From the IMG/VR virus record IMGVR_UViG_3300047476_001256, positions 1 through 58,432 of that record: DNA of 58,432 nucleotides; one strand, written 5' to 3'. Positions within the stretch are counted from its first letter, which is position 1. Every line of letters starts with the position of its first letter. The translations under genes and the position numbers were made by a program. This document shows positions 38,478 through 44,515 of the stretch, one piece after another. This stretch comes from a virus. Below the pieces are notes generated by a model. It did not search any database. It saw only the letters and a program-made list of their open reading frames with translations, and was not told where the DNA came from.

Positions 38478-38573
38478 ATTTTTGAACTAACTCACTGGAA
38501 ACCTTATAATTGAATTGAATCAACTTATGGGTTAAGCACTCCGTTTATGTTAGTTCTTCGTGCTCCAAATTTG

Positions 38574-38661
38574 CGGAAAGACAGGGATTCGAACCCCAGA
38601 TACGCTCATCACGTATGCCGCTTTTCAAGAGCGGTGCAATCAACCTCTCTGCCATCTTTCC
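38574..38661 (-). tRNA. tRNA-Ser(TGA)
   Basis: Anticodon loop CTTGAAA; class II variable arm; acceptor GGAAAGA / TCTTTCC; 3' end followed by CA. Confidence 0.9.
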
Positions 38662-38668
38662 TAATATA

Positions 38669-38938
38669 CTAATAGATATGTGTTTCTTCGTTTCTGAAGT
38701 CTTTTGTATCTATTTCAAATTTTTCTTGTCTAATTCTAGCTTCTTCTGCTTCTCTAACCATTCTAATCCAAGTAATAGATACATCAACAGGCGCCAATAC
38801 CCATGCCATAACTAACACCATAATTGAGTCTAATTCCGGTGATGTCCCATAATCAACTCCTCTATTTTTGTATTTTTGATTCAGTTGATAGAAACAATAC
38901 ACTATGCAAATAACATAATAAATAACAAACCAATTCAT
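38669..38938 (-). CDS. Small membrane protein (89 aa)
   Basis: Two hydrophobic segments (MNWFVIYYVICIVYCFY and SIMVLVMAWVLAPVDVSI) and a basic/acidic helical tail. The only protein gene between its promoter (38961-38992) and the first tRNAs, so it is co-transcribed with them. Function unknown. Confidence 0.58.
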   Translation of the reverse strand: MNWFVIYYVICIVYCFYQLNQKYKNRGVDYGTSPELDSIMVLVMAWVLAPVDVSITWIRMVREAEEARIRQEKFEIDTKDFRNEETHIY

Positions 38939-38960
38939 AATTTTAAGTTTTAAGTTTTAA

Positions 38961-38992
38961 TAAATATACGATAATATTTTTATATTACCAAT
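38961..38992 (-). promoter_or_regulatory. Host-type promoter ATTGG-N19-TATATTTA
   Basis: TATATTTA at 38961-38968 with ATTGG at 38988-38992, spacer 19. A second TATTACCAA-type half site lies just upstream. Confidence 0.6.
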
Positions 38993-39013
38993 TTTTATAT
39001 TACCAAATAAATG

Positions 39014-39087
39014 TGGGAAAGATAGGACTCGAACCTATGACCTCAAAATTATGAGTTTTTTGCTCTAACCAACTGAGCTACATTCCC
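39014..39087 (-). tRNA. tRNA-Met(CAT), elongator-like
   Basis: Loop CTCATAA; D-arm GTAGCTCAGTTGG; acceptor GGGAATG / CTTTCCC. May be Met or, with lysidine, Ile2. Confidence 0.85.
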
Positions 39088-39090
39088 AAT

Positions 39091-39195
39091 AAAGATTATA
39101 TTCATTCCGCCTTTAGTAGTCTATTTACCATTCACTACCACGTTTATCTAGTCAGACTTCTTTGGGTTTGGTATCGTTCCCTTTATATAATCTTT
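39091..39195 (-). ncRNA. Structured spacer RNA A (105 nt)
   Basis: A perfect 11-bp terminal stem, AAAGATTATAT / ATATAATCTTT, encloses a more mixed core with GGGAACGATACC and GTGGTAGTGAATGG. It fills the space between two tRNA-type genes and has no ORF. Confidence 0.5.
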
Positions 39196-39203
39196 AAATA
39201 AGG

Positions 39204-39313
39204 TGCCGGAGGAGAGATTGGTTACTCACACGCAGGCCATTTCGGCTAATACTGCTCCTTTCTAGATTACGGCGCGTCTCAAAGTTGTACACACTTCTTT
39301 CCGCCACTCCGGC
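39204..39313 (-). ncRNA. Degenerate Leu-like tRNA-like RNA (110 nt)
   Basis: Acceptor GCCGGAG / CTCCGGC is perfect and the D-stem start TGGCGGAA is Leu-like, but the D-loop carries a hairpin (AAGT / ACTT), the anticodon region (TAATCTAGAAAGG) has no proper 5-bp stem and 7-nt loop, and the T-loop GAGTAACCAATCTC lacks TTCRANY. No CA end. Probably not an aminoacylated tRNA. Confidence 0.5.
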
Positions 39314-39319
39314 ATATTG

Positions 39320-39391
39320 TGGAGAATACCGGATTCGAACCGATGTATCATGCGTGCAAGGCAGGTGCTAAACCAACTCAGCTAATTCCCC
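39320..39391 (-). tRNA. tRNA-Ala(TGC)
   Basis: Loop CTTGCAC; acceptor GGGGAAT / ATTCTCC; T-arm TCGG-TTCGAAT-CCGG; 3' CA. Confidence 0.85.
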
Positions 39392-39397
39392 CATTTG

Positions 39398-39483
39398 TGC
39401 CTCAAGCGGGAATCGAACCCGCACCCACATTACTGCGGACGAGATTTTAAGTCTCGCGTGTATACCGATTTCACCATCGAGGC
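39398..39483 (-). tRNA. tRNA-Leu(TAA)
   Basis: Loop CTTAAAA, class II variable arm, acceptor GCCTCGA / TTGAGGC, normal D-loop. Confidence 0.9.
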
Positions 39484-39491
39484 GGTGATTG

Positions 39492-39563
39492 TAGTCCGGC
39501 GTGGAATCGAACCACGAATAGTTGCTTAGAAGGCGACGGTTATATCCATTTAACTACCAGACC
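39492..39563 (-). tRNA. tRNA-Arg(TCT)
   Basis: Loop CTTCTAA; T-arm CGTGG-TTCGATT-CCACG; G1-U72 wobble closes the acceptor; 3' CA. Confidence 0.88.
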
Positions 39564-39567
39564 ATTG

Positions 39568-39729
39568 GTTGTTTCAACTTGCAAGTTTACTCTTAACATC
39601 TCTTTCTCTACAACGACTGAACTTAATCACATTTGTAGTCCGAATGTAGCGTTGGGTAATTACTCCATGCTTCTATGTAACTCTATATACCTTACTTTGT
39701 TACTAAGTGTGTTAAGTGTATGAAACAAC
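39568..39729 (-). ncRNA. Structured spacer RNA B (162 nt)
   Basis: Perfect 9-bp terminal stem GTTGTTTCA / TGAAACAAC; internal hairpins such as ACATT / AATGT around CGGACTACA. Located between tRNA-Arg and tRNA-Asp; no ORF. Confidence 0.5.
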
Positions 39730-39732
39730 TTG

Positions 39733-39807
39733 CGGAATTAACGGGATTCGAACCCGTGGTCTCATCCGTGACAGGGATGCATGTTAGGCCAACTACACCA
39801 TAATTCC
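39733..39807 (-). tRNA. tRNA-Asp(GTC)
   Basis: Loop CTGTCAC; T-arm ACGGG-TTCGAAT-CCCGT; acceptor GGAATTA / TAATTCC; 3' CA. Confidence 0.9.
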
Positions 39808-39812
39808 AATTT

Positions 39813-39886
39813 GAGCCTAGTGATGGATTCGAACCTCCGACCCTCTCATTACAAATGAGATGCTCTACCAGCTGAGCTAACCAGGC
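39813..39886 (-). tRNA. tRNA-Thr(TGT)
   Basis: Loop TTTGTAA; acceptor GCCTGGT / ACTAGGC; one mismatch in the T-stem; 3' CA. Confidence 0.85.
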
Positions 39887-39887
39887 A

Positions 39888-40012
39888 ATTTAGAAGGTCA
39901 CCGATACCACCTTCAACGGAGAGTTATTTAATGTCATTTTGTCTAATTTATCTTTCGATACATAGTCGCAGGTTTCTCTCTTAACTGACGAACCCGACCC
40001 GGTTTTAAGTTT
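39888..40012 (-). ncRNA. Spacer RNA C (about 125 nt)
   Basis: Between tRNA-Thr and tRNA-Glu. Contains hairpins GAAGGT / ACCTTC (loop GGTATCGGTG) and AACC / GGTT around GGGTCG. No ORF; ends not well defined. Confidence 0.35.
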
Positions 40013-40013
40013 G

Positions 40014-40085
40014 TAGTCCCGAGGAGAATCGAACTCCCCTCTCGTCCGTGAAAGGGACGCGTCCTAACCGATAGACGACGGGACC
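40014..40085 (-). tRNA. tRNA-Glu(TTC)
   Basis: Loop CTTTCAC; acceptor GGTCCCG / CGGGACT with G1-U72 wobble; T-arm GGGAG-TTCGATT-CTCCT; 3' CA. Confidence 0.88.
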
Positions 40086-40087
40086 AG

Positions 40088-40187
40088 AACTAAAGGAAAG
40101 TAGAAGATGGGTGCGTGGACATCTACTTTTATGATTGGCGTTTCTAACCGGTCAGTATTACAATGAATACCCATCCCAATCAACCTT
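40088..40187 (-). ncRNA. Spacer RNA D, first RNA after a promoter (about 100 nt)
   Basis: Two stem domains: GATTGG / CCAATC enclosing GTATT / AATAC, then AAAGTAGA / TCTACTTT. It follows the 40196-40227 promoter, so it could be the leader of the lower tRNA block or a separate RNA. Confidence 0.42.
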
Positions 40188-40195
40188 TAATAAAT

Positions 40196-40227
40196 TAAAT
40201 ATACGATAAATAATTTAATCTACCAAA
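40196..40227 (-). promoter_or_regulatory. Host-type promoter TTTGG-N19-TATATTTA for lower tRNA block
   Basis: TTTGG at 40223-40227, TATATTTA at 40196-40203, spacer 19, between the YkuK-like gene and tRNA-Glu. Confidence 0.75.
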
Positions 40228-40683
40228 TTATAATTTTACTAAGTGGTCTGCTGCATATGTTGCAATAGGCCCCAAAGATTTATACCTAACTTCATATCCC
40301 ATTCCTTCTACCATACCAACTGCTTGTCTAAACACTTCGTTAGATTTATACTTTGGGTCTGGGTTAATGTCAATGTCAATCCATTTCACTTTAGGTATTC
40401 CTGCATTTTTCATTGACTCAGCAACTTCAACTGCATACCATACTTCGTTTAATAGTCTAACTGACCTTGTTGGTTCTCTTTGAGATTTCCACTTATTATA
40501 TAACACATGTGCACCTTTTCCTTTGTGGTATAATGCAACTACAATTGCATATATAGTCTTGTCCGAAAAGTTTTGAGAGTCACATCCAATTAAGATTTCT
40601 ACATCCTTATTTGACTCCATATACTCTTTTACATAATCAAGTAATTCTACTTTCTGACCACTATATAATTTTTTGTATGTCAT
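40228..40683 (-). CDS. RNase H-like protein, YkuK/DUF458 family (151 aa)
   Basis: Start at MTYKKLYSG; the longer frame would cover tRNA-Leu(TAG). EILIGCDSQNFSDKTIYAIV, ALYHKGKGAHV, VRLLNEVWYAVEV, DIDINPDPKYKSNEVF and AADHLVK are the DUF458 signature with several acidic residues. This family has an RNase H-like fold and is predicted to act on RNA. Its place inside the tRNA array suggests a role in tRNA or ncRNA processing. Confidence 0.72.
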   Translation of the reverse strand: MTYKKLYSGQKVELLDYVKEYMESNKDVEILIGCDSQNFSDKTIYAIVVALYHKGKGAHVLYNKWKSQREPTRSVRLLNEVWYAVEVAESMKNAGIPKVKWIDIDINPDPKYKSNEVFRQAVGMVEGMGYEVRYKSLGPIATYAADHLVKL

Positions 40684-40703
40684 AACATATGTTTTATTTT
40701 TTG

Positions 40704-40779
40704 TACCCGTAGAAAGACTCGAACTTTCAATTGTACGGCTTCTAAGACCGTTGCGTATGCCTAATTCCGCCATACGGGC
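40704..40779 (-). tRNA. tRNA-Leu(TAG)
   Basis: Loop CTTAGAA; acceptor GCCCGTA / TACGGGT; short variable arm for a Leu tRNA; 3' CA. Confidence 0.85.
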
Positions 40780-40785
40780 ATTTTG

Positions 40786-40874
40786 CGGAAGATGTAAGAT
40801 TCGAACTTACGATACGAATTACTCCGTATAACGATTTAGCAAACCGGCCCTATCAACCACTCAGGCAATCTTCC
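40786..40874 (-). tRNA. tRNA-Ser(GCT)
   Basis: Loop TTGCTAA; long variable arm; acceptor GGAAGAT / ATCTTCC; 3' CA. Confidence 0.9.
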
Positions 40875-40879
40875 TTTTG

Positions 40880-40951
40880 GGTGTAAGAACGGTATCGAAC
40901 CGTCTTCCCTGGCTCCACAAACCAGTGCATCACCTTAATGCTTCAAACACC
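40880..40951 (-). tRNA. tRNA-His(GTG)
   Basis: Loop TTGTGGA. An encoded G-1 pairs with C73, the key His identity element; 3' CA. Two mismatches inside the acceptor. Confidence 0.85.
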
Positions 40952-40957
40952 ATGTTG

Positions 40958-41025
40958 TTGCGGGGCTAGGAGTCGAACCTAGGACACTCGGCTTATGAGA
41001 CCGGTGGGAAACCATTCTCCCCGCA
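40958..41025 (-). tRNA. tRNA-Met(CAT), compact D-arm
   Basis: Loop CTCATAA; perfect acceptor TGCGGGG / CCCCGCA; T-arm CTAGG-TTCGACT-CCTAG; short D-arm (total 68 nt). Not a classical initiator (no GGG/CCC anticodon stem), but could fill that role. Confidence 0.8.
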
Positions 41026-41033
41026 ATATGTTG

Positions 41034-41104
41034 AGGTCAGTATTGGATTTGAACCAATGTGAAAGCTTTTGCAGAGCTCCTCCTCGCCTCTCGGACAACC
41101 GACC
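41034..41104 (-). tRNA. tRNA-Cys(GCA)
   Basis: Loop CTGCAAA; acceptor GGTCGGT / ACTGACC; T-loop TTCAAAT; 3' CA. Confidence 0.88.
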
Positions 41105-41111
41105 TTATTTG

Positions 41112-41183
41112 TAGCCCCTAAAGGATTCGAACCCTTACTCTAACATCCGTAGTGTTGTGTGCTATCCGTTACACTAAAGAGCC
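41112..41183 (-). tRNA. tRNA-Arg(ACG)
   Basis: Loop CTACGGA; T-arm AAGGG-TTCGAAT-CCTTT; 3' CA. A34 would normally be deaminated to inosine by host TadA. Confidence 0.85.
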
Positions 41184-41191
41184 ATCATTTG

Positions 41192-41262
41192 CACGCAGTG
41201 AATGAATCGAACACTCTCCTCTGGTTTTGGAGACCAGTTGGCTACCATAGCCTACCACGCAT
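41192..41262 (-). tRNA. tRNA-Trp(CCA)
   Basis: Loop CTCCAAA in a perfect CTGGT / ACCAG stem; acceptor weakly paired; 3' CA. Confidence 0.82.
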
Positions 41263-41265
41263 TTG

Positions 41266-41338
41266 TAGGAATAACAAGACTCGAACTTGTGACTTCAATC
41301 GTATCAGAATTGCACTCTACCAACTGAGTTATATTCCT
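41266..41338 (-). tRNA. tRNA-Ile(GAT)
   Basis: Loop CTGATAC; acceptor AGGAATA / TATTCCT; T-arm ACAAG-TTCGAGT-CTTGT; 3' CA. Confidence 0.9.
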
Positions 41339-41343
41339 ATGTG

Positions 41344-41415
41344 TTGTCCCTCAGGGATTCGAACCCCAACTATCTGGACCAAAACCAGATGTACTAGCCG
41401 TTATACTAAAGGACA
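41344..41415 (-). tRNA. tRNA-Gln(TTG)
   Basis: Stem TCTGG / CCAGA with loop TTTTGGT; acceptor TGTCCTT / AGGGACA; 3' CA. Confidence 0.87.
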
Positions 41416-41420
41416 ATAAT

Positions 41421-41493
41421 CTCAAGCATTCTACTCCCCGCAGTACGGAATTGTATCTTACTTAGCCCATCGTTAGCGGTATGGGTACTTGAG
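41421..41493 (-). ncRNA. tRNA-sized spacer RNA E (73 nt)
   Basis: CTCAAG / CTTGAG terminal stem enclosing CCCAT / ATGGG and CCG / CGG hairpins. Exactly tRNA length, between tRNA-Gln and tRNA-Gly, but without a T-loop or anticodon arm. Could be a collapsed tRNA. Confidence 0.4.
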
Positions 41494-41496
41494 TTG

Positions 41497-41568
41497 AGCA
41501 GGTGAGAGGAATCGAACCTCCGTCTCAGGCTTGGAAGGCTAGAGTAATAACCATTATACGACACCTGC
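41497..41568 (-). tRNA. tRNA-Gly(TCC)
   Basis: Loop CTTCCAA; acceptor GCAGGTG / CACCTGC; 3' CA. Confidence 0.88.
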
Positions 41569-41578
41569 TTATATTTTG

Positions 41579-41654
41579 TCGGAATAGCAGGATTCGAACC
41601 TGCGTGCTCCACATCCCAAATGTGGCGAGATAGACCGGACTCCTCTACATTCCG
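41579..41654 (-). tRNA. tRNA-Pro(TGG)
   Basis: Stem CCACA / TGTGG with loop TTTGGGA; acceptor CGGAATG / TATTCCG; 3' CA. Confidence 0.9.
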
Positions 41655-41703
41655 TTATTGTACTTCCTATGTGCAGAGTTGTCTAGTACTAACCATTCTC
41701 CAG

Positions 41704-41777
41704 TGACCCCTAATGGACTCGAACCATTGACTCCTATATTAAAAGTATAGTGCTCTAACCAACTGAGCTAAGAGGTC
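41704..41777 (-). tRNA. tRNA-Lys(TTT)
   Basis: Loop CTTTTAA; acceptor GACCTCT / AGGGGTC; followed by CT, not CA. Confidence 0.9.
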
Positions 41778-41816
41778 TGACTTTTGTCACTTTCCATTTT
41801 GTTTCTTTTTGGTTTG

Positions 41817-41889
41817 TGGTAATGAGTGGTATCGAACCACTTCCTAAAGATTTTCAGTCTTTCGCTTCTACCTAGTTAGCTTCATCACC
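41817..41889 (-). tRNA. tRNA-Phe(GAA)
   Basis: Loop CTGAAAA; acceptor GGTGATG / CATTACC; T-arm AGTGG-TTCGATA-CCACT; 3' CA. Confidence 0.9.
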
Positions 41890-41895
41890 AAATTG

Positions 41896-41977
41896 TGAGA
41901 GTAAGTGGACTCGAACCACTGAACTCGAATGAGAGCGGATTTACAGTCCGCCGCAATTGCCGCTATGCGATACTCCC
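41896..41977 (-). tRNA. tRNA-Tyr(GTA)
   Basis: Loop CTGTAAA with long variable arm; acceptor GGGAGTA / TACTCTC; 3' CA. Confidence 0.9.
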
Positions 41978-41985
41978 AATTGTTG

Positions 41986-42060
41986 TAGAAGATATAGGAT
42001 TCGAACCTATGACTTTCTCGGTGTAAACGAGATGCTCTAAACCAACTGAACTAATCTTCT
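41986..42060 (-). tRNA. tRNA-Val(TAC)
   Basis: Stem TCTCG / CGAGA with loop TTTACAC; acceptor AGAAGAT / ATCTTCT; 3' CA. Confidence 0.9.
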
Positions 42061-42065
42061 ATGTT

Positions 42066-42139
42066 GCGCTTTCCGAGAATTACGATATCTCGACCCCATC
42101 ATTAACAGTGATGTGCTCTGCCTCTGAGCTAGGAAAGCG
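42066..42139 (-). tRNA. tRNA-Asn(GTT), expanded T-loop
   Basis: Loop CTGTTAA; acceptor CGCTTTC / GAAAGCG; T-stem CGAGA / TCTCG but with a 9-nt loop TATCGTAAT. Lacks the CA end. First tRNA of the array. Confidence 0.75.
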
Positions 42140-42147
42140 TATATAAC

Positions 42148-42180
42148 AAAAAAACCCCTAACTTTTTTATCAGTTAGAGG
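42148..42180 (-). terminator. Terminator upstream of the tRNA array
   Basis: CCTCTAAC / GTTAGGGG stem with TTTTTTT on the minus strand, 9 bases before tRNA-Asn. Either the array has an unrecognised promoter or it is reached by read-through. Confidence 0.72.
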
Positions 42181-42213
42181 TCTTTTAAATATTGTTTATA
42201 AAACTATTACATT

Positions 42214-42333
42214 TTATCCTACATCCGTATCCTCTAACTTATCAATTCTATCTTGTGAATTAAACATACTAATGCCCGCCCACACCTTAAGTGTCGGTTG
42301 ATAACAATTTGTATGTAAGTTAAAGTTTTTCAT
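42214..42333 (-). CDS. Possible small protein (39 aa)
   Basis: MKNFNLHTNCYQPTLKVWAG then SQDRIDKLEDTDVG. ATG and TAA frame a 39-codon ORF between the long RNA unit and the terminator. Plausible but short; it could also be part of a non-coding RNA. Confidence 0.35.
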   Translation of the reverse strand: MKNFNLHTNCYQPTLKVWAGISMFNSQDRIDKLEDTDVG

Positions 42334-42370
42334 CGTTAATATATATAATCTTTTTATAAATAATGTTAAA

Positions 42371-42442
42371 AAAGTAATTTAATTTCAAAATACGCCACGT
42401 CAAGTCATGCTCCGGTTATTATCAGCCTCATCAAATTACTTT
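42371..42442 (-). terminator. 3' terminal stem domain of the giant RNA
   Basis: Perfect AAAGTAATTT / AAATTACTTT stem enclosing a ~52-nt core with GATGAGGCTGATAATAACCG, followed by TTT on the minus strand. It could end the giant RNA or be a separate small RNA. Confidence 0.5.
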
Positions 42443-42665
42443 TGATTAGTACAAACAGGTTTTAACGGGAGGCGATAAACCTTCATAGTGTACTGCTATC
42501 TAAATCGGTAACATATATCGTCTTTATTACATTTTTCACGAAAAATCCTCCCAAAAACGCTCATTACCAATTTTATTTTTTCGTTAATATCTTTTAGGTC
42601 TTTTAAACGATTTGACGGTTGAATAAGAAACCGCCGGAAATGTCGACCACGAAAATCTTCGTATT

Positions 42666-42763
42666 GAGCGGGGCCATAGAATCGAACTACATCCTCTCAC
42701 CTGGATCGGTAAGTGTGCTATCCCGTGGGTAAACCCGCGTGGAACCATTACACCAACTCCGCT
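42666..42763 (-). ncRNA. Embedded tRNA-like domain with D-loop hairpin (98 nt)
   Basis: Acceptor AGCGGAG / CCCCGCT (one mismatch), D-arm opening GGTGTAATGG and T-loop TTCGATT are tRNA-like. A 23-nt hairpin insert (42721-42743, TCCaCGcGGG / CCCaCGGGA) sits in the D-loop, and the anticodon stem CTTAC / GTGAG closes an 8-nt loop (CGATCCAG), so no codon can be assigned. No CA end. Confidence 0.5.
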
Positions 42764-43679
42764 TATAAATGGATGAGAATACTCCATTGGGAGAACTAGC
42801 TTTAGAAAGATTATTTGTTTCCTTTCGTTTCCACTACCTTTTGAGTAGTACCAATTCAATGTGGATGATTTAAGACTATCAGTCTTTAAGTTGCCGATTA
42901 CTCTCTCATTACTCCGCTTCTTCAAATCTGCCGACCTGATTAAACCTTGCGAGTCTAGAAGTTTTTCGTAAGAATCACAGACCTCTTGCGGAGGTATCGT
43001 GGCAAGGAACAACTCCCTACTATGTACACACCTTTCATCTGCAACTGGTAAACACTTAAGCTTAATTTTTATTGAATTTTGATAAATGCAAATCAAATTG
43101 AGTTTTAGTTTATAGAATTATTCAGGTAGCGGTTTACCACTAGCTCCCTCATCTTTTGAACGAGAGAATACTAAACTACCCGATGCAGTATCCCTACTGC
43201 GGTTTTTTAAGTCATCTTCAGTTATAGGTTTTGGTAAACTCTATAAGAGGATGGTAACAACACCACTTGTACACTATCTTATCTCGCGTCCTTTCGGATG
43301 GCTTGATGTTAAGATAACTTTCAAACTGAATACCGCAATGATGTAGAGGGATTAAGTCTACACTTCTTACTGATATTCTATGGGTTATTCTTATTGTTGT
43401 TCCCAACTCAGTCGGAGTATCTATACTACCCCAACCATTCCCACTATTCACCTAAAGTGTTACCCTCAACTACTTTAGCGAGAATGATATCCCACTTGCC
43501 TACTCAAGTTATTCTCTCCTTACGGGGAGAGTAACCGCAGATACACCACTTAAGTATATCCACTTTATCCTACTTTCGTAGTTTATTTGACCACCATAGG
43601 CGGCGGTTGTTTACTTTGTGAGTAGAAACTCACTTTGTAAAGATTTCAATATTTTAAAGAACTTTTCTTTCGGTTTTAA

Positions 43680-43711
43680 TAAATATACGAATAATTTTTT
43701 TTATTGCCAAA
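43680..43711 (-). promoter_or_regulatory. Host-type promoter TTTGG-N19-TATATTTA for giant RNA
   Basis: TTTGG at 43707-43711, TATATTTA at 43680-43687, spacer 19. Confidence 0.75.
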
Positions 43712-43782
43712 TATTTTTAAAACTTTTTTTGTAAATTTGATAACGAGTATCTTTCATCACCTATTGTTTCTCATTTACTTAT

Positions 43783-43814
43783 GTAATATACGAAACATTT
43801 TTAACATTACCAAA
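43783..43814 (-). promoter_or_regulatory. Host-type promoter TTTGG-N19-TATATTAC
   Basis: TTTGG at 43810-43814, TATATTAC at 43783-43790. Its ~70-nt transcript region (43712-43780) has no obvious product beyond a possible 18-codon ORF. Confidence 0.65.
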
Positions 43815-43834
43815 TTTATTTTCAAAAAACTTTT

Positions 43835-43918
43835 AAGATAATTGGTATCCGGCTTTCTTAAGAGCTTGAGCCCCGCACATAGTCGGTTTTATTACTATTG
43901 GCTTCAACCAATCATCTT
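43835..43918 (-). ncRNA. Small RNA H with 11-bp terminal stem (84 nt)
   Basis: AAGATGATTGG / CCAATTATCTT terminal stem (one G-U) encloses a core with GGGGCTCAAGCTCTTAAGAAAG. Own promoter at 43923-43954 and a TTTTTTG run after the stem. A 15-codon ORF (MCGAQALKKAGYQLS) lies inside; whether it is translated is unclear. Confidence 0.55.
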
Positions 43919-43922
43919 AAAT

Positions 43923-43954
43923 GTAAGATACGATAATTTTTTCAAACTACCAAA
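43923..43954 (-). promoter_or_regulatory. Host-type promoter TTTGG-N19-TATCTTAC
   Basis: TTTGG at 43950-43954, TATCTTAC at 43923-43930, spacer 19. Starts small RNA H. Confidence 0.68.
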
Positions 43955-43968
43955 TCTTTTTTATTTTA

Positions 43969-44039
43969 ATAATAATTGAAATGTTATACATTTTACGGGC
44001 GTCTTATTTTTACTTAGTCTACTCTCCCACAATTATTAT
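43969..44039 (-). ncRNA. Small RNA I with 5S-like sequence (71 nt)
   Basis: Perfect ATAATAATTG / CAATTATTAT terminal stem enclosing TGGGAGAGTAGACTAAGT and GACGCCCGT. The 5' part GTGGGAGAGTAG resembles the 3' strand of loop E/helix IV of Bacteroidota 5S rRNA. Its promoter is at 44077-44108. Ribosomal-protein binding is speculative. Confidence 0.5.
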
Positions 44040-44076
44040 ATTTTTAAAGAACTTATCATTGTTTCCTTTGATATAT

Positions 44077-44108
44077 CAAATATACGACAAATTTTTCAAT
44101 CTACCAAA
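44077..44108 (-). promoter_or_regulatory. Host-type promoter TTTGG-N19-TATATTTG
   Basis: Perfect consensus: TTTGG 44104-44108, TATATTTG 44077-44084. A palindrome half-site is at 44130-44142. Confidence 0.78.
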
Positions 44109-44129
44109 TATTTTTTTAAATCATTAGAA

Positions 44130-44142
44130 ATCAATGAGTTAT
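44130..44142 (-). repeat. ATCAATGAGTTAT half-site next to the tmRNA end
   Basis: One half-site; its last base is the first base of the tmRNA 3' CCA complement. Could be involved in termination or in control of the 44077-44108 promoter. Confidence 0.5.
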
Positions 44143-44515
44143 GGTGGAGATGAGCGGAGTCGAACCGCTGTCTTACTAGAAATCAATAATATCAGCATCT
44201 CACATGTTTATTCAGTTATTCACAACTGACAAATATATAAGTTTTTACATTTCGTTATAATCAATGTTTTGACTCGATTTAGGGTTCAGTCAATTTTCCA
44301 CCTTTATAGCTACTTCTGTTACTAGGCGTATGTAGTCCGGCCCTATTGTTTGAATTAGGCTGCTACAGCGTAATCCATACCTACAAACGCCATTAAATCG
44401 TTGTAAGTCATAGTTGACATTTCGTCATTTATTGTTTTGCAAGTATTTTAAGACATTCTTACTTTGTCTACATGTGATATTACCATTTACATAGCAATCA
44501 ATTCCATACATCCCC
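44142..44515 (-). ncRNA. ssrA: tmRNA (ssrA), 374 nt
   Basis: 5' GGGGATG pairs over 7 bp with 3' CATCTCC, followed by ACCA. T-arm AGCGG-TTCGACT-CCGCT is perfect. The internal reading frame ends TYNDLMAFVGMDYAVAA then TAA (44355-44408), with the AVAA end that ClpXP-type proteases recognise. The resume codon is not certain. It rescues stalled ribosomes and tags their products. Own promoter at 44554-44585. Confidence 0.88.

Follow-up and report, generated by a model that had tools for sequence, protein, structure and literature searches.

Three described systems bear on the RNA reported here. The GOLLD family comprises giant phage RNAs that lie close to tRNAs, and its env-38 member, visualized by cryo-electron microscopy (Kretsch et al. 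2025), is an 833-nt RNA with a 5′ domain (1–420), a 3′ domain (421–833), and a disordered linker inside the cage (PMC12286853). In mammals, mascRNA and menRNA exploit recognition by RNase P to end the long RNAs MALAT1 and MEN-β (PMC11693755). In the rrn antitermination leader, a hairpin, boxB, stands ahead of boxA (PMC10250234). We analyzed a 58,432-base virus record (IMGVR_UViG_3300047476_001256; hereafter the window, to whose full length all coordinates refer) and find that the element at 43604–42770 on the minus strand is a GOLLD RNA, a phage copy whose host is probably a member of the Bacteroidota. Unlike GOLLD env-38, it carries a boxA leader, a tRNA-like domain attached on its 3′ side, and a terminal element, here called element E. 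In the literature searched, which left out Weinberg 2009 and Morgado 2020, where an earlier remark is possible, we found no mention of either a boxA at the start or a tRNA-like tail in GOLLD.

Identity and extent of the GOLLD RNA

The initial annotation, made from sequence without database searches, had placed a candidate giant RNA at 42366–43673, either GOLLD/ROOL-like or of a new class, and had given no strand; all main elements lie on the minus strand. The Rfam model RF02032 (gathering score 150 bits) is matched over its full length (model positions 1–416 of 416) at 43183–42770 (−), with 287.3 bits and E = 4.5e-81, which bears out the GOLLD option and excludes a new class. The search that had been suggested with the GOLLD, ROOL, OLE, and HEARO models matched GOLLD alone: the other three have no match at gathering threshold in the window and none at E values up to 10 in 42140–44141, and these identities are ruled out. 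ROOL is likewise a giant, cage-forming phage RNA found near tRNAs, but the window RNA does not match its model.

The 5′ domain, some 420 nt upstream of the RF02032 match, is less conserved and is recognized by homology in relatives from 43604 onward and by covarying helices. Distant relatives align by blastn over 43604–42770, and homology and covariation together delimit a body of 835 nt. The comparison set was assembled from 11 GOLLD-bearing relatives, reached via a neighboring protein, one DNA match, and the DNA ligase, and from pattern scans of viral contigs that added about 100 loci; in total, 98 loci match the window by blastn. The window copy and env-38 share the full 3′ domain model, a 5′ domain close to 420 nt in length, and a variable linker (835 versus 833 nt; domain split here 43604–43184/43183–42770).

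We aligned 88 GOLLDs (effective number 35). Among the top 100 covarying column pairs, 97 are Watson–Crick or G–U in >80% of sequences, compared with 14% of background pairs. Covariation spans 43608–42770, with helices in both the 5′ and 3′ domains, so that the stable structure noticed initially is, together with the full-length model match, far beyond chance. A covarying helix (43138–43133 with 43052–43047) flanks the variable linker, which is comparable to the disordered, cage-interior linker of env-38. Covariation also links position 42989, in a loop, to position 43060, in the linker flank, as a long-range contact. By our own assignment, the L21a loop is CGCAA and retains the GC dinucleotide whose self-pairing joins chains in env-38 (PMC12286853). 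On the strength of family membership, we infer that the window RNA can form a cage; inspection was confined to the contact-loop sequence.

The region also carries no conserved protein, in line with the protein-free unit that had been proposed. A 170-aa frame over the RNA contains 3–14 stops in each of the 17 close relatives examined, and a 77-aa frame, open in the four nearest relatives, is broken in the other 13; a protein-coding region is rejected on these grounds. GOLLD membership is established by the full model match, the 835-nt homology, the covariation, and the nonconserved reading frames. The surroundings fit the phage location near tRNAs that is typical of GOLLD: the locus is in a virus record with phage protein families, a transfer-messenger RNA (44142–44515) is upstream, and the tRNA array of the initial annotation, numbering 23 tRNAs, is downstream on the same strand as GOLLD.

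The span originally proposed is close to the predicted transcript, and its end at 43673 matches the predicted start at ~43672. From promoter to terminator, the parts are:

43711–43682 (−): GOLLD promoter, TTTGGCA-N17-TATATT, predicted start ~43672; found by motif scan, in a similar position in close relatives
43662–43652 (−): boxA-type element GTTCTTTAAAA in the leader; motif scan, conserved in relatives' leaders
43604–43184 (−): GOLLD 5′ domain, beyond the Rfam model; homology and covarying helices
43183–42770 (−): GOLLD 3′ domain, the full RF02032 match; Rfam and covariation
43132–43053 (−): variable linker, with its flanking helix; covariation
42762–42668 (−): tRNA-Gly-like domain, directly after the last GOLLD helix; structure comparison, covariation, and fold
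42744–42721 (−): D-loop insertion of 24 nt in the tRNA-like domain, forming a hairpin and shared with two relatives
42666–42446 (−): variable 3′ spacer, missing from several relatives; blastn and comparison of element E
42443–42368 (−): element E, with a 14-bp outer stem, a conserved internal loop, and then a T-run (terminator); pattern scan, comparison, and fold

The 3′ end and its tRNA-like domain

The tRNA-like domain, which had been described as embedded in the RNA, is real, but its place is immediately 3′ of the GOLLD body rather than within it; the tRNAs mentioned in the env-38 study are inside the linker (PMC12286853). Six of its seven acceptor pairs are formed, the T-arm has the canonical T loop TTCGATT, and the D-loop contains GG. 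The anticodon stem is fully paired (5/5), but its loop has 8 nt (CGATCCAG). The minimum-energy fold is a cloverleaf plus the D-loop hairpin. Behind the domain comes T-CAA, a trailer that several array tRNAs also have. Homology to several relatives by blastn ends at 42744.

The same spot is occupied in different ways among relatives, the GOLLD 3′ end nearly always running directly into a terminator or into a tRNA or tRNA-like element. An automatic rule applied to 98 GOLLD 3′ flanks assigned 39 to an immediate terminator, 24 to a tRNA, 25 to a tRNA-like element, and 10 to neither; in several of these 10, the last GOLLD helix is itself followed by a T-run. An automatic acceptor/T-arm score on the flanks alone is passed by 70% of shuffled sequence at a threshold of 15 and by 1% at 18; because it separates poorly at low thresholds, comparison and covariation were used to call the tRNA-like elements. 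Relatives have an intact tRNA-Gly(UCC), tRNA-Gly-like forms with 8-nt anticodon loops, or minimal forms of ~45 nt that lack the anticodon arm and keep a GG-bearing D remnant, and distant lineages have tRNA-Met(CAU). In the 13 minimal forms the acceptor has 7 bp, with a single 6-bp exception, the T stem has 5 bp, with a single 4-bp exception, and the T loop has 7 nt. In one relative, both members of the elbow pair are changed, from G19–C56 to A19–U56. Judged by these sequence comparisons, the tRNA-like elements have lost decoding, whereas compensatory changes have preserved their acceptor stem, T-arm, and elbow pair; they have been swapped or shrunk repeatedly in the GOLLD lineage. The GOLLD tree requires at least seven changes for the minimal form and at least seven for terminator versus tRNA; recombinational exchange may contribute to this switching. 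Since terminator and tRNA or tRNA-like element alternate at one place, a single shared task is indicated, namely making the GOLLD 3′ end.

The arrangement, a tRNA-like fold with acceptor, T-arm, and elbow just behind the RNA, is that of long RNAs matured by RNase P. In MALAT1 and MEN-β, a long non-coding RNA is likewise followed by a non-decoding tRNA-like element, mascRNA or menRNA, that keeps the acceptor, T-arm, and G19–C56 elbow (PMC11693755, PMC12941219), and the RNase P ribozyme stacks on this elbow and measures from there to its cleavage site (PMC11693755). Processing is proven for these mammalian RNAs, whereas for the unrelated phage GOLLD it is putative. We consider it probable that the 3′ tRNA-like domain serves as an RNase P-type processing tag on a GOLLD transcribed under rRNA-type antitermination.

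The leading alternative, which we nevertheless regard as unlikely, is that an ordinary GOLLD happens to adjoin a tRNA array and that its tRNA-like domain is a redundant tRNA gene that decays neutrally and has no role in maturation. The window does contain a further, canonical tRNA-Gly(UCC) at 41496–41568, an intact tRNA-Gly(UCC) persists at the GOLLD 3′ site in five relatives, and a pseudo-tRNA has been reported within a Mycobacterium GOLLD (PMC6582537). Neutral decay would, however, break the anticodon stem, yet in 17 diverged full-length tRNA-like forms all 85 of 85 anticodon-stem pairs are kept, many with double changes (shuffled partners give a mean of 53 and a maximum of 69). Minimal forms with the same acceptor/T geometry also recur on separate branches, and terminator and tRNA replace each other at one spot, neither of which fits simple decay.

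Several points weigh against a processing tag. Five relatives have an intact copy, and decay of a redundant tRNA accounts for part of the 3′ pattern; the folding energy of the window domain alone is ordinary (z = −0.57); and the acceptor, D-loop, and anticodon-arm assignments of the degenerate forms were made by hand. Nine full-length tRNA-like elements have the T loop RGCRRNA with A18/G55, a non-canonical form that may weaken RNase P binding. As an observation in its own right, RGCRRNA replaces the TTCRANN T loop in two minimal forms as well, with A18 for G18 in the full-length D loops, in distant GOLLD lineages.

Beyond the variable spacer, the terminal stem plus T-run noticed initially proves to be a separate conserved element, element E. 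Each of the 19 viral matches to the pattern of element E is found downstream of a same-strand GOLLD, ~65–350 nt behind the GOLLD end, and the pattern has no match in cellular genomes. The outer stem varies among relatives with pairing maintained, and element E is likely the primary 3′ end of the transcript. A reading of element E as a 16S rRNA antisense (a 12-nt match, ACGTCAAGTCAT, found by eye) was dropped, as two relatives have CACG for CTTG with the internal hairpin kept. Just behind the GOLLD unit, at 42333–42214 (−), is a conserved 39-aa microprotein frame (MKNFNLHTN..WAGISMFN..LEDTDVG), with similar frames in three relatives.

Promoters, leader, and boxA

The promoter postulated initially is found as TTTGGCA-N17-TATATT ahead of the predicted start. 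A scan of the window for the underlying motif, TTTGGYA-N17-TATNTT, gave 10 copies where 0.15 would be expected, and all 10 are on the minus strand. The layout is the Bacteroidota-type −33/−7 one. In terms of the leader itself, the 11-mer GTTCTTTAAAA has two copies in the window (0.19 expected), and its core, GTTCTTTRA, is present in 79 of 91 relatives' leaders (51 of 62 non-redundant), compared with an average of 0.39 for simulated leaders. The core is not found on the antisense strand of the leaders and occurs three times in 74 kb of GOLLD bodies.

A related box, GTTCTTTGA, occurs in the 16S–23S spacers of host-phylum genomes. Matches to AGTTCTTTGACATATTG in prokaryotic genomes are mostly from Bacteroidota, and 63 of 120 fall inside 16S–23S spacers, one expected site of boxA (PMC10250234); because of this placement, GTTCTTTRA in the GOLLD leader is, on sequence grounds, an rRNA-type boxA. 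Promoter type, boxA, and signal-peptide style together point to a Bacteroidota host. As in the rrn leader (PMC10250234), GTTCTTTRA stands shortly after the promoter of a long untranslated RNA, and in some GOLLD relatives a hairpin lies ahead of it as well. Unlike in the rrn leader, the window boxA would drive GOLLD instead of rRNA; factor binding and antitermination on the GOLLD leader are putative.

For the boxA step only, it is conceivable, if rather improbable, that GTTCTTTRA is instead a shared leader motif carried along by promoter recombination. It does often stand shortly after the leader hairpin described below and its promoter, and 12 of the 91 leaders lack a strict boxA, which counts against antitermination. 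Distances between GTTCTTTRA and promoter vary, however; its absence from the antisense strand and near absence from GOLLD bodies, as well as its identity with the box in host rRNA spacers, also disfavor a passively carried motif.

Two features lie upstream of the GOLLD promoter:

43814–43785 (−): upstream promoter, TTTGGTA-N17-TATATT, start point ~43778; motif scan
43778–43731 (−): "motif M," a leader hairpin with the core AATAGGTGATGAAAGATACTCG, placed right at the start point of the upstream promoter; recurrence and covariation, the window copy being slightly diverged

Motif M has the architecture UUUGAA-AC-UUAUAGGUGAUGAAAGAUACUCGGUA-UUCAAA. Eight of its 13 predicted stem pairs show double changes, and its loop (AUAGGUGAUGAAAGAUACUCGGUA) is invariant; the window copy has no Rfam match. 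Viral contigs contain an 18-nt piece of it in 92 stretches, not all of which have a GOLLD close by. A promoter lies ahead in 38 of 42 cases, GOLLD follows within 1.5 kb downstream in 27 of 42, and boxA often stands 12–17 nt 3′ of the motif. Because the rrn leader likewise has a hairpin followed by boxA, motif M and boxA suggest a nut/rrn-like antitermination site. Motif M is also seen behind phage promoters in four further loci and others.

Two further stretches accompany these promoters. At 43815–43917 (−), between two stacked promoters, a region closed by a 10-bp stem (GATGATTGGT/ACCAATTATC) has no obvious long reading frame and is possibly another small RNA. The stretch at 43960–44078 (−) lies behind a stacked promoter and has a boxA at 44042–44052; similar sequence (AATAATTGTGGGATAGTAGACTAA...AAATAAGACGCCC) is also upstream of GOLLD in two relatives.

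Proposed biogenesis and genomic setting

These observations can be rationalized by the following scheme. GOLLD would be read on the minus strand from ~43672, and boxA would recruit host NusB/S10, so that the polymerase escapes Rho termination and completes this long untranslated RNA. The folded RNA would assemble, ~14 copies together, into a hollow cage as in env-38, and RNase P would cleave 5′ of the tRNA-like domain, giving the same mature GOLLD 3′ end as the terminator yields elsewhere. In its broadest form, the proposal is that GOLLDs of Bacteroidota phages are antiterminated through boxA like rRNA and then freed when tRNA-processing enzymes act on a tRNA mimic that does not decode and has arisen repeatedly from genuine tRNAs, which would make the phage system a counterpart to MALAT1/mascRNA; to this we give about even odds. 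If true, the phage case would be an independent origin of the MALAT1/mascRNA-type trick.

That the domain instead stays attached to the cage and acts as a decoy or a display, aimed for instance at tRNA-cutting host defenses or the translation machinery, is quite unlikely: the 8-nt anticodon loops and the suggestion of Kretsch et al. that GOLLD cages could hold or expose covalently linked tRNAs (PMC12286853) speak for it, but minimal forms wholly lack the anticodon arm and terminator-ended GOLLDs lack the domain altogether. Returning to the processing scheme, boxA and the interchangeable terminator, tRNA, or tRNA-mimic 3′ end offer testable handles on GOLLD biogenesis, and boxA and the 3′ module define the likely true GOLLD ends for structural work. 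Our most likely guess for the role of the cage is one tied to translation during infection, because the tRNA array and the transfer-messenger RNA adjoin and ribosomes have been reported to bind GOLLD.

Pfam and PHROG matches in the window include an ATP-dependent DNA ligase, an endolysin, a nuclease, a MoxR/CobS-like AAA ATPase, and others, a gene content compatible with a large phage. Among 50,697 phage records, the 642-kb uncultured phage LR756502 is the only DNA-level match. In the array (38573–42138, −), most of the 23 tRNAs end with CAA after the discriminator base rather than an encoded CCA. Rfam finds an extra tRNA (33 bits) at 40958–41025 (−), beyond those called by ARAGORN.
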